From positions 79,566 through 143,565 of the forward strand of contig JAKFVT010000055.1 of assembly GCA_021732005.1 (NCBI GenBank): a stretch of DNA of 64,000 nt. The letters run 5' to 3'. The notes beneath the pieces were generated by a model. That model was not told the origin of the DNA. It was given only the letters and a program-made list of their open reading frames with translations, and did no database searches. The position numbers and the translations under genes were made by a program. Position 1 is the stretch's first letter. The number at the start of each line of letters is the position of its first letter. The stretch comes from Mycobacterium sp. (lineage in GTDB: Bacteria; Actinomycetota; Actinomycetes; Mycobacteriales; Mycobacteriaceae). Below are positions 18,061-21,138 of this stretch, one piece after another.

Positions 18061-18864
18061 ATGCAGGTGCGAAAGCTGCTGATCACTCTTGGTGCCACGC
18101 TGCTGGCCGTGGTCGTCGGGGCGGTCGGCGTCGATTTCGGGGCGACGATTTACGCCGAGTACCGGCTGGCACGCACCGTGCGCAGCGCCGCCGGACTGTC
18201 GTTCGACCCGTCGGTGGCGATACTGGGCTTTCCGTTCATTCGCCAGGCCATGCAGCACCACTTCGACGAGATCGAGATCAAGGCCAACGGAGTGGGCCAT
18301 CCCGTGGTCGGCAAGGCCTCACTCGAGGCCACCCTGCACAACATCGATCTTACCCAAGCATCGTGGCTGATCAGGCCCGATGCGGATCTGCCGGTCGGCA
18401 AGCTCGAGAGCCGCATCATCATCGACTCCCTGCACCTCGGCCGGTTCGTCGGGATCACCGACCTGATGGTCGAGGCTCCGTCGAAGGAGACGAACGACGC
18501 CACCGGCGGGACCACCGAATCGGGTATCTCCGGAAGTAAGGGCCTGGTCTTCACCGGGACGCCGAAGAAAGCCGACTTCGACAAGCCGGTCAGCGTCGCC
18601 GTCGACCTCTCGGTGGCAGGCCCGGAACAGACCACGTTGGTTTTCACGGCCACCGATGTGCAGACCGGTCCCGGCACCGCTGACCAGCCGGTACCCGATG
18701 ACAAGAAGGCGGCGGTGCTGGCGGCGTTCAGCGGCAGCTTGCCCGGCCAGAAGCTGCCGTTCGGGGTGCGCCCGACCACCGAGGGTGCTCGCGGCTCGGA
18801 CATCATCATCGAAGGCATCGCCGAGGGAGTAACCATCCGGCTCGACGGGTTCACACAGTCATGA
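18061..18864 (+). CDS. lmeA: LmeA family phospholipid-binding protein
   Basis: An envelope protein that in M. smegmatis is needed for normal mannan elongation of lipomannan and lipoarabinomannan, through the mannosyltransferase MptA. The 267-residue protein has one N-terminal membrane anchor or signal segment (LLITLGATLLAVVVGAVGVD). A DUF2993-type beta-rich domain follows (FGATIYAEYRLARTVRSAAG, LGFPFIRQAMQHHFDEIEI). Its place beside glnR matches Rv0817c. ATG 18061 was chosen over the track start; GTG 18067 (MRKLLITLG) is also possible. Its last codons overlap thiX by 4 bp. Confidence 0.9.
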   Translation: MQVRKLLITLGATLLAVVVGAVGVDFGATIYAEYRLARTVRSAAGLSFDPSVAILGFPFIRQAMQHHFDEIEIKANGVGHPVVGKASLEATLHNIDLTQASWLIRPDADLPVGKLESRIIIDSLHLGRFVGITDLMVEAPSKETNDATGGTTESGISGSKGLVFTGTPKKADFDKPVSVAVDLSVAGPEQTTLVFTATDVQTGPGTADQPVPDDKKAAVLAAFSGSLPGQKLPFGVRPTTEGARGSDIIIEGIAEGVTIRLDGFTQS

Positions 18865-19280
18865 GCCCCGCATTGATCACCGCGATCGTCGCCATCGTCG
18901 CCGCGCTGGGCGTGGCGATCGTCGCAGGCGTGCTGCACAACCGGCGGTCCGGAGTCGTTCGCGAAGCCGAATCGCACGACGTCGACGTGAGCGACCTGGG
19001 TTTATCCCGGACCGGTCCGACCGTCGTGCATTTCAGCGCAGTGTGGTGCGGACCCTGCGCAGGGGTGCGGCGCGTGGTCAACCAGGTGTGTGCCGACCTT
19101 CGCGACGTCGCCCACGTCGAAATCGACATGGATGCCGATCCGGCTGCCGCACGCAAGCTTTCGGTGCTGTCGCTGCCGACCACGTTCATCTTCGACGCCG
19201 ACGGCCGGCAGCGGTACCGGACGGCAGGGGTCCCCAAGGCCGCTGACCTGCGCGCAGCCCTCGAGCCTCTGTTGGCCTGA
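18861..19280 (+). CDS. thiX: Membrane-anchored thioredoxin-like protein ThiX
   Basis: A 139-residue thioredoxin-fold protein with an N-terminal membrane anchor (ALITAIVAIVAALGVAIVAG). The redox-active CxxC is in SAVWCGPCAGVRRVV, and the cis-proline is in LSLPTTFIFD. The active site probably faces the cytoplasm or cell wall depending on anchor orientation. It corresponds to Rv0816c. It overlaps lmeA by 4 bp and lies just upstream of the sulfurtransferase operon, suggesting a link to thiol or sulfur redox handling. Confidence 0.92.
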   Translation: MSPALITAIVAIVAALGVAIVAGVLHNRRSGVVREAESHDVDVSDLGLSRTGPTVVHFSAVWCGPCAGVRRVVNQVCADLRDVAHVEIDMDADPAAARKLSVLSLPTTFIFDADGRQRYRTAGVPKAADLRAALEPLLA

Positions 19281-19296
19281 GACCCCGGTCATTGGG

Positions 19297-19302
19297 TACC
19301 AT
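19297..19302 (+). promoter_or_regulatory. -10 element for the polycysteine leader
   Basis: TACCAT matches the mycobacterial TANNNT -10 consensus and ends 7 bases before GTG 19310. Transcription would therefore begin at or next to that GTG, making the leader ORF leaderless. It overlaps the upstream in-frame ATG (19301), which argues against that ATG being used. Confidence 0.6.
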
Positions 19303-19309
19303 GACTCGC

Positions 19310-19402
19310 GTGTCGACCCGCCTCGAGCTAGCGCTCACCAAGCGTCGCGCAGTCGATCTGTGCCGCATTGCGGGTTGTTGCTGTTGTTGCTGTAGCTGCT
19401 GA
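19310..19402 (+). CDS. Polycysteine leader peptide (cysteine-responsive attenuator ORF)
   Basis: A 30-residue ORF not in the track, ending IAGCCCCCCSC: eight cysteines in all, six of them consecutive. It lies 90 bp upstream of the DUF4395/sulfurtransferase operon. Polycysteine leaderless short ORFs are known in mycobacteria as cysteine-responsive attenuators of this operon. Here the codon tract contains TGTTGCTG twice (19376-19383, 19385-19392), exactly complementary to CAGCAACA (19473-19480) directly before the downstream GGAG site. Ribosomes stalled by low cysteine would mask the tract and free that site. An in-frame ATG at 19301 would give 33 residues, but it overlaps the -10. Confidence 0.88.
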   Translation: MSTRLELALTKRRAVDLCRIAGCCCCCCSC

Positions 19403-19472
19403 GTCGCCGCGCCCTTCTTTCGCGCCGCCACTCTGGAGCGGCCGTTTGCGGCTCGTCTCCGCCCAGCCCGAT

Positions 19473-19484
19473 CAGCAACAGGAG
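19473..19484 (+). promoter_or_regulatory. Ribosome binding site with anti-SD complement in the leader
   Basis: CAGCAACA abuts the GGAG ribosome binding site of the DUF4395 gene. Its eight bases can pair perfectly with either of two TGTTGCTG copies in the polycysteine codons about 80-100 bases upstream. It is the likely occluded site in the attenuator. Confidence 0.6.
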
Positions 19485-19492
19485 AAGAAAAC

Positions 19493-19963
19493 ATGTCGAC
19501 AAGCATCACCAACGCCCCCGCCGTCGCCCAGGTGGATGTCCGCGGCCCCCGCTTTGCGGCCTGGGTCACCACGGGCGTCCTGGTCGCGGTTCTCGTCGTC
19601 TCCGGATTCAGCACGGTCGCGGCGGCCGTGCTCCTGGGGTTGCAGGCCGTGGTGTTCGCAATCGGGGCGCTGCGCGGGCCGCGTCAGCACCCCTACGGAT
19701 TGATCTTCGCCAACGTCGTCGCCCCGCGGCTGAGCCCCGTCTCCGAGCGGGAGCCGGTGCCGCCGTTGAAGTTCGCACAATTGGTGGGGTTCGTGTTCGC
19801 GGTCGCCGGCACCGCCGGCTTCGCCCTGGGAGCACCGCTGCTCGGCACCGTCGCCACCGCTTTCGCCCTGTTCGCCGCTTTCCTCAACGCGGCCTTCGGC
19901 ATCTGCCTGGGCTGCCAGATCTACCCCCTCGTGGCCAGGCTGCGTACGCCGGCCACCACCTGA
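19493..19963 (+). CDS. DUF4395 family membrane protein
   Basis: A 156-residue integral membrane protein with about four hydrophobic helices (VTTGVLVAVLVVSGFSTVAA, GLQAVVFAIGAL, FAQLVGFVFAVAGTAGFAL, FAAFLNAAFGICLGCQIY). The cysteine pair in GICLGCQIY and the histidine in PRQHPYG are typical of DUF4395. A redox or sulfur-related role is inferred from context only. It is the first gene of the operon controlled by the polycysteine leader, with a GGAG ribosome binding site. The sulfurtransferase follows 36 bp later. Confidence 0.9.
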   Translation: MSTSITNAPAVAQVDVRGPRFAAWVTTGVLVAVLVVSGFSTVAAAVLLGLQAVVFAIGALRGPRQHPYGLIFANVVAPRLSPVSEREPVPPLKFAQLVGFVFAVAGTAGFALGAPLLGTVATAFALFAAFLNAAFGICLGCQIYPLVARLRTPATT

Positions 19964-19999: not shown

Positions 20000-20833
20000 A
20001 TGGCACGCTCCGACGTCCTGGTCTCCACGGACTGGGCCGAGAGCAATCTCGATGCGCCGAACGTCGTCTTCGTCGAGGTCGACGAGGACACCTCGGCTTA
20101 CGAAGACGGCCACATCGCCGGCGCCGTCAGGCTGGACTGGAAGACCGAACTGCAGGACCAGGTCAAGCGTGACTTCGTCGATCAGCAGCAGTTCTCGAAG
20201 TTGTTGTCCGACAAGGGAATCAGCAATGACGACACCGTGATCCTGTACGGAGGCAACAACAACTGGTTCGCCGCGTACGCCTACTGGTACTTCAAGCTGT
20301 ACGGCCACGAGAACGTCAAGCTGCTCGACGGCGGCCGCAAGAAGTGGGAACTCGACGGACGCCCCCTGGTGACCGAGGTGCCCGACCGGCCCGCCACGTC
20401 GTACGCCGCGAAGGCCCCCGACAACACCATTCGGGCGTTCCGCGACGAGGTGATCGCCGCGATCAACGCCAAGAACCTGGTGGACGTGCGGTCCCCCGAC
20501 GAGTTCTCCGGCAAGATCCTCGCGCCGGCCCACCTCCCACAGGAGCAGAGCCAGCGCCCCGGGCATATCCCCGGCGCCATCAACGTTCCGTGGAGCAGGG
20601 CTGCAAACGAGGACGGCACCTTCAAGTCCGACGAGGAACTGGCCAAGCTCTACGCCGCGGCCGGCCTGGACGGCGAGAAGGAGACGATCGCCTACTGCCG
20701 AATCGGCGAGCGGTCATCGCACACCTGGTTCGTGCTGCAGGAACTCTTGGGGCACAAGAACGTCAAGAACTACGACGGTAGTTGGACCGAATATGGCTCC
20801 CTGGTGGGGGCCCCGATCGAGTTGGGAAGTTGA
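20000..20833 (+). CDS. cysA2: Thiosulfate sulfurtransferase (tandem rhodanese), CysA2/SseA type
   Basis: A cytosolic enzyme that transfers sulfane sulfur from thiosulfate to an acceptor such as cyanide or a thiol. The 277 residues form two rhodanese domains. The N-terminal one is inactive (no cysteine at the loop). The C-terminal one has catalytic cysteine in AYCRIGERSSHTWF, a six-residue rhodanese loop. Conserved marks are DEDTSAYEDGHIAGAVRLDW and VRSPDEFSGK. A GAAAGGAAC site precedes ATG 20000. It is cotranscribed with DUF4395 and sseC, and corresponds to Rv0815c. Confidence 0.94.
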   Translation: MARSDVLVSTDWAESNLDAPNVVFVEVDEDTSAYEDGHIAGAVRLDWKTELQDQVKRDFVDQQQFSKLLSDKGISNDDTVILYGGNNNWFAAYAYWYFKLYGHENVKLLDGGRKKWELDGRPLVTEVPDRPATSYAAKAPDNTIRAFRDEVIAAINAKNLVDVRSPDEFSGKILAPAHLPQEQSQRPGHIPGAINVPWSRAANEDGTFKSDEELAKLYAAAGLDGEKETIAYCRIGERSSHTWFVLQELLGHKNVKNYDGSWTEYGSLVGAPIELGS

Positions 20834-20835
20834 TC

Positions 20836-21138
20836 ATGTGCTCTGCACCTAAACAAGGACAGACTCTGCCCGCCGGTGTCGACCTCGAGAAGGAGACCGT
20901 GATCACGGGCCGCGTGGTGGACGACTCGGGTCAGACGGTGGGCGGTGCCTTCGTGCGTCTGCTGGACTCGAGCGACGAGTTCACCGCCGAGGTGGTGGCC
21001 TCGGCGACCGGTGACTTCCGGTTCTTCGCGGCACCGGGCACCTGGACAGTGCGTGCGCTGTCCAAGGTCGGCAACGGCGACGCCACCGTCGCGCCGACCG
21101 GCGCCGGGATCCACGAAGTCGACATCAAGGTCGCGTGA
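20836..21138 (+). CDS. sseC: SseC family protein (DUF1416)
   Basis: A 100-residue protein of the DUF1416 family that always partners the rhodanese gene in mycobacteria (Rv0814c, sseC2). The sequence ITGRVVDDSGQTVGGAFVRLLDSS reads as a transthyretin- or CarboxypepD_reg-like beta sandwich. A conserved cysteine follows the initiator (MCSAPKQG). ATG 20836 was chosen because it starts two bases after the rhodanese stop; the track start at 20782 lies inside that gene. A role in sulfur metabolism is inferred from linkage. Confidence 0.92.
   Translation: MCSAPKQGQTLPAGVDLEKETVITGRVVDDSGQTVGGAFVRLLDSSDEFTAEVVASATGDFRFFAAPGTWTVRALSKVGNGDATVAPTGAGIHEVDIKVA

Follow-up and report, generated by a model that had tools for sequence, protein, structure and literature searches.

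A short cysteine-rich open reading frame (ORF) precedes the DUF4395-rhodanese-DUF1416 operon in the window, the stretch of 64,000 nucleotides analyzed here, and very probably functions as a cysteine-responsive translational attenuator. Its Cys codons carry two copies of TGTTGCTG, and both are exactly complementary to CAGCAACA, which abuts the GGAG of the ribosome binding site (RBS) of the first gene; a first-pass annotation of the DNA had claimed this perfect match, and direct reading bears it out. The features of the locus are as follows.

19297-19302, plus strand: -10 element TACCAT, read directly from the sequence; its position predicts a transcript start at the GTG
19310-19402, plus strand: leader ORF, predicted to be leaderless, with a GTG start, 30 aa and 8 Cys; from reading and translation, conserved in relatives
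19376-19399, plus strand: Cys codon tract TGT TGC TGT TGT TGC TGT AGC TGC; putative sensor codons and anti-RBS strand
19385-19392, plus strand: 3' copy of TGTTGCTG, the preferred register with CAGCAACA; mean pair probability 0.91
19376-19383, plus strand: 5' copy of TGTTGCTG, the minor register; mean pair probability 0.07
19403-19472, plus strand: spacer of 70 nt, GC-rich, with a central GC-rich hairpin; from the fold and from RNAalifold on relatives
19473-19480, plus strand: CAGCAACA, the complement of the Cys tract, adjoining the Shine-Dalgarno (SD) sequence; from sequence, complement test and computed pairing
19481-19484, plus strand: SD sequence GGAG; without a ribosome, 3/4 bases are computed to be paired with the tract at ~0.88
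19493-19963, plus strand: DUF4395 gene, first of the operon, ATG at 19493 (PF14340, E 1.7e-42)
20000-20833, plus strand: rhodanese / thiosulfate sulfurtransferase gene, CysA2/SseA-like (PF00581)
20839-21138, plus strand: DUF1416 gene, SseC-like (PF07210)

The proposed 30-aa, eight-Cys ORF was confirmed by direct reading and translation; its Cys run is C-terminal. Pfam confirmed the identity of the operon that follows, a sulfur/cysteine-related one. The leader peptide is VSTRLELALTKRRAVDLCRIAGCCCCCCSC; its C-terminal end reads AGCCCCCCSC and is followed by a TGA stop codon (19400-19402). The first base of the GTG lies 7 nt past the TACCAT element. The ATG further upstream (19301-19303) shares bases with the -10 hexamer and therefore cannot start a transcript made from that -10. 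Among relatives, 121/127 leaders have TAnnnT at a distance of exactly 7 nt from the start codon. The overlap and the conserved spacing uphold the earlier choice of the GTG, not the upstream ATG, as the start of the leader, and the arrangement strongly suggests that the leader is leaderless, with its start codon at the 5' end of the transcript.

Two further observations were made around the leader. A thioredoxin-fold gene (18861-19280) is located directly upstream on the same strand and ends 29 nt before the leader start. At the transcript's 5' end, GTGTCGAC (19310-19317) is complementary to ATGTCGAC (19493-19500) at the start of DUF4395; the match includes the palindromic GTCGAC, and its two sides pair in the fold. 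Several close relatives have a different sequence on the leader side, and this pairing may be due to chance.

Conservation was assessed in the upstream regions of 136 DUF4395 relatives, drawn from the genus and the family. Of these regions, 127 have the leader, its end rich in Cys and its core resembling KRRAVDLCR, and GTG is the start codon in 125 of the 127. It was also present in 76/80 named records, a set that overlaps the 136 regions. The nearest named genome is that of Mycolicibacterium rhodesiae (M. rhodesiae), whose DUF4395 is 97% identical. The leaders are related by descent, and the 85 from the genus do not amount to 85 independent events. In nine DUF4395 relatives (L066, L067, L072, L081, L093, L096, L102, L103 and L115) the leader was not recognizable; in several of these, AGGAG follows straight after the apparent end of the upstream gene.

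High conservation of the peptide, including KRRAVDLCR, would also fit a role for the Cys-rich leader peptide itself, for example as a metal- or redox-binding small protein. Such a role is extremely unlikely, as third codon positions are constrained beyond the peptide and a cis regulatory role of the leader has been published for the ortholog.

For each of 75 distinct genus leaders, the 18 nt that end within the SD were compared with the Cys tract, and the longest perfectly complementary stretch was recorded. Its mean length was 7.05 nt, as compared to 4.51 nt with the 18 nt shuffled and 4.19 nt in other segments of the same spacer. Leaders from other genera (n = 34) displayed no enrichment (4.53 nt vs 4.58 nt shuffled). 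The motif CAACAGGAG is present in 58/85 genus leaders and in 0/42 of the others. RNAduplex with full loops was also tried as a test of the complement and was rejected as too permissive to discriminate.

A complement of this kind could be a by-product, if low-complexity TGY repeats pair with whatever RBS context is rich in CAA/CAG and if TGT is favored only for slow decoding. Pairing barely changed when tracts were swapped between species (7.05 vs 6.94 nt), and this lack of species-specific pairing is in keeping with a by-product, as is the result for the window sequence alone, in which 11% of Cys-codon permutations form a duplex at least as good (p 0.11). However, CAACAGGAG, common as it is in the genus leaders, seldom precedes a start codon in the genome at large (10 occurrences in 5.76 Mb, the same number as for a reversed-pattern control), and we regard a by-product as unlikely. 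Taken by itself, the window sequence is weak evidence for a complement beyond chance; the comparative set is what supports it.

Since paired positions hardly vary, a 51-sequence alignment shows almost no covariation (a double change in 1/17 pairs, that pair lying outside the tract-RBS helix), and covariation gives no independent support. A suggestive exception is seen in tracts bearing Arg (TGTCGT), which tend to be accompanied by ACGAC in the anti-element near the SD (4/7 vs 2/68; Fisher p 4e-4, post hoc and ignoring relatedness). This tendency also speaks against a by-product. In one leader, L117, the exact match between tract and anti-element extends to 11 nt.

Folding was performed to assess the pairing between the Cys codons and the RBS. 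The minimum free-energy fold of the window leader pairs the Cys tract with the RBS element, and in the ribosome-free state the 8 nt before the SD (CAGCAACA) are paired with the tract at a computed probability of 0.997. In the models, the central hairpin of the spacer brings the Cys tract to the RBS, and CCAGCCC near the 3' end of the spacer may pair with AGCTG at the end of the leader. A stalled ribosome was modeled as a mask on the Cys tract, with the cost of opening the whole RBS region as the readout. The unpaired probability of the SD, flat at ~0.25 in every ribosome state, had been tried as a readout and was replaced by the opening cost.

Masking the tract lowered the opening cost by a mean of 5.1-5.5 kcal/mol in the genus leaders, and by more than 1 kcal/mol in 76-78 of the 85. 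A control mask at codon 6 gave a mean relief of 0.4 kcal/mol in genus leaders, and outside the genus (39 leaders of other genera) the tract mask gave ~1 kcal/mol. The predicted sequestration depends on the choice of Cys codons: across the 85 genus leaders, a relief of 5.3 kcal/mol for the real sequences fell to 1.7 kcal/mol with Cys codons randomly redrawn at 75% TGC and to 0.3 kcal/mol with all Cys codons TGC, and real relief exceeded recoded relief in 77/85. Shuffling the 16 nt that precede the SD reduced it to 1.3 kcal/mol. Abolition of the predicted effect by either the shuffle or the recoding is a further argument against a by-product. According to these computations, the RBS is hidden in a structure that a ribosome sitting on the Cys tract would prevent. 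The claimed pairing of Cys codons with the RBS-adjacent element is supported, with sequestration lost on synonymous recoding.

In the case of the window leader, the opening cost was 14.3 kcal/mol unmasked and 8.6-11.1 kcal/mol with the tract masked; it was 8.2 kcal/mol with all-TGC codons and 9.1 kcal/mol with CAGCAACA changed. Here the codon-6 control mask gave relief as well (14.3 to 10.3 kcal/mol), probably because the 5' end is modeled to pair via GUCGAC with the region of the start codon. With the tract masked, most of the SD remains paired with other partners, probably TCTCC in the spacer as modeled; what becomes cheaper to open is the RBS region as a whole. A conserved CUCC anti-SD in the spacer was not clearly enriched (40/85 leaders vs 34 in shuffles).

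The two copies of TGTTGCTG had been read as two alternative pairing registers. This reading did not hold up. The 3' copy is paired at 0.91 and the 5' copy at 0.07, and both copies are present in only 14/75 genus tracts; the two-register model was rejected as a conserved feature.

The mechanism that we propose would begin with an mRNA starting at the leader GTG, hence 70S ribosomes would translate the leader first. With ample Cys-tRNA, ribosomes would clear the tract, and the UGUUGCUG strand (mainly the 3' copy) would pair with CAGCAACAGGAG, burying the DUF4395 RBS. With scarce Cys-tRNA, a ribosome would pause on the Cys codons and cover the strand; the RBS would be cheaper to open and the operon would be translated. 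We infer the pausing and the in vivo structure, and the direction of regulation would follow, by analogy, that of the published M. smegmatis work.

Leader translation might instead govern termination, intrinsic or by Rho, in the spacer ahead of DUF4395. Such layouts in leader-peptide attenuators often act on transcription, as does the M. tuberculosis ilvB1 attenuator (PMC13236596). However, the conserved complement targets the RBS and not a terminator, and the spacer contains no stem followed by a U run that would mark an intrinsic terminator. Only one match resembled a terminator; it falls within the leader ORF and has TTGCTGTTGT as its tail. Transcription attenuation is very unlikely at this locus, and translational attenuation is the reading carried forward.

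A second cysteine leader of the same genome, MTAPQTLRSPALVVRRHVDFKRVCTCCCLA, is located before nirA (L204, contig C4) and has an interrupted Cys run; no pure four-Cys leader other than that of DUF4395 was found in this genome. The nirA RBS lacks CAACA and has no complement to the Cys tract; an inverted repeat, CTCCT...AGGAG, surrounds its SD and suggests a local hairpin. Within this one genome, the two leaders may differ in how they conceal the RBS.

Leaders of other genera in the family (L032-L057 in part, L118-L137) conserve the peptide RRAVDLCRLGGCCC..C. Their spacer is longer, mostly 105-160 nt, and their RBS, which reads GCGCAGGAG or a similar sequence, does not complement the tract. TGT makes up 62% of tract Cys codons in the genus and 42% in other genera, and 16% of Cys codons in the window's genes (69 long ORFs). 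This enrichment could alternatively reflect slow decoding. On balance we lean towards selection of the TGT-rich Cys codons of mycobacteria to form the RBS-hiding strand, with Rhodococcus, Nocardia and others, which have the same peptide and no complement, having to use a different expression platform. The locus offers a clean, testable case of synonymous codons carrying regulatory pairing information. The comparative set of 127 leaders predicts a change that should abolish control, all-TGC recoding, and suggests that lineages divide into those whose leaders have an RBS complement and those whose leaders lack it.

Shell 2015 described a Cys-rich leaderless ORF before cysA2/Msmeg_5788 in M. smegmatis, conserved in mycobacteria and occupied by ribosomes, and proposed cysteine attenuation for it (PMC4633059). 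Canestrari 2020, as represented in papers that cite it, reported cysteine-responsive attenuation (PMC13236596, PMC9094748, PMC9031893). The window leader is the ortholog of the M. smegmatis leader and a probable member of the polycysteine leaderless attenuator class, and the first-pass annotation was right that the class is known in mycobacteria, the M. smegmatis ortholog having been described in 2015. The latter is reportedly named Ms5788A by Canestrari 2020, whose abstract is said to state that stalled ribosomes block RBS-sequestering structures. Ms5788A has the same locus and C-terminal Cys run as the window leader, and the leaderless start that is predicted for the latter; it differs in species, the window's nearest named genome being M. 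rhodesiae. A search of Rfam gave no match above the gathering score, the best being an unrelated lncRNA at 8.5 bits.

The novelty is limited: the orthologous locus has been known since 2015 and a translational mechanism was reported in 2020, according to the citing papers. The present analysis adds a test of codon choice in 85 leaders and the absence of the complement outside the genus; tract-RBS pairing may already figure in Canestrari 2020. Other mycobacterial cysteine leaders precede sulfur-metabolism or hypothetical genes, among them nirA and Rv0485/Msmeg_0932 (PMC4633059). These share with the window locus the presence of Cys codons in the leader. In ermC-type translational attenuators and in the trp, his and ilv leaders, a ribosome stalled in the leader ORF alters downstream mRNA structure. 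Compared with these systems in general terms, the attenuator proposed here differs in that the sensing codons are themselves the RBS-pairing strand and in that the leader is predicted to be leaderless.
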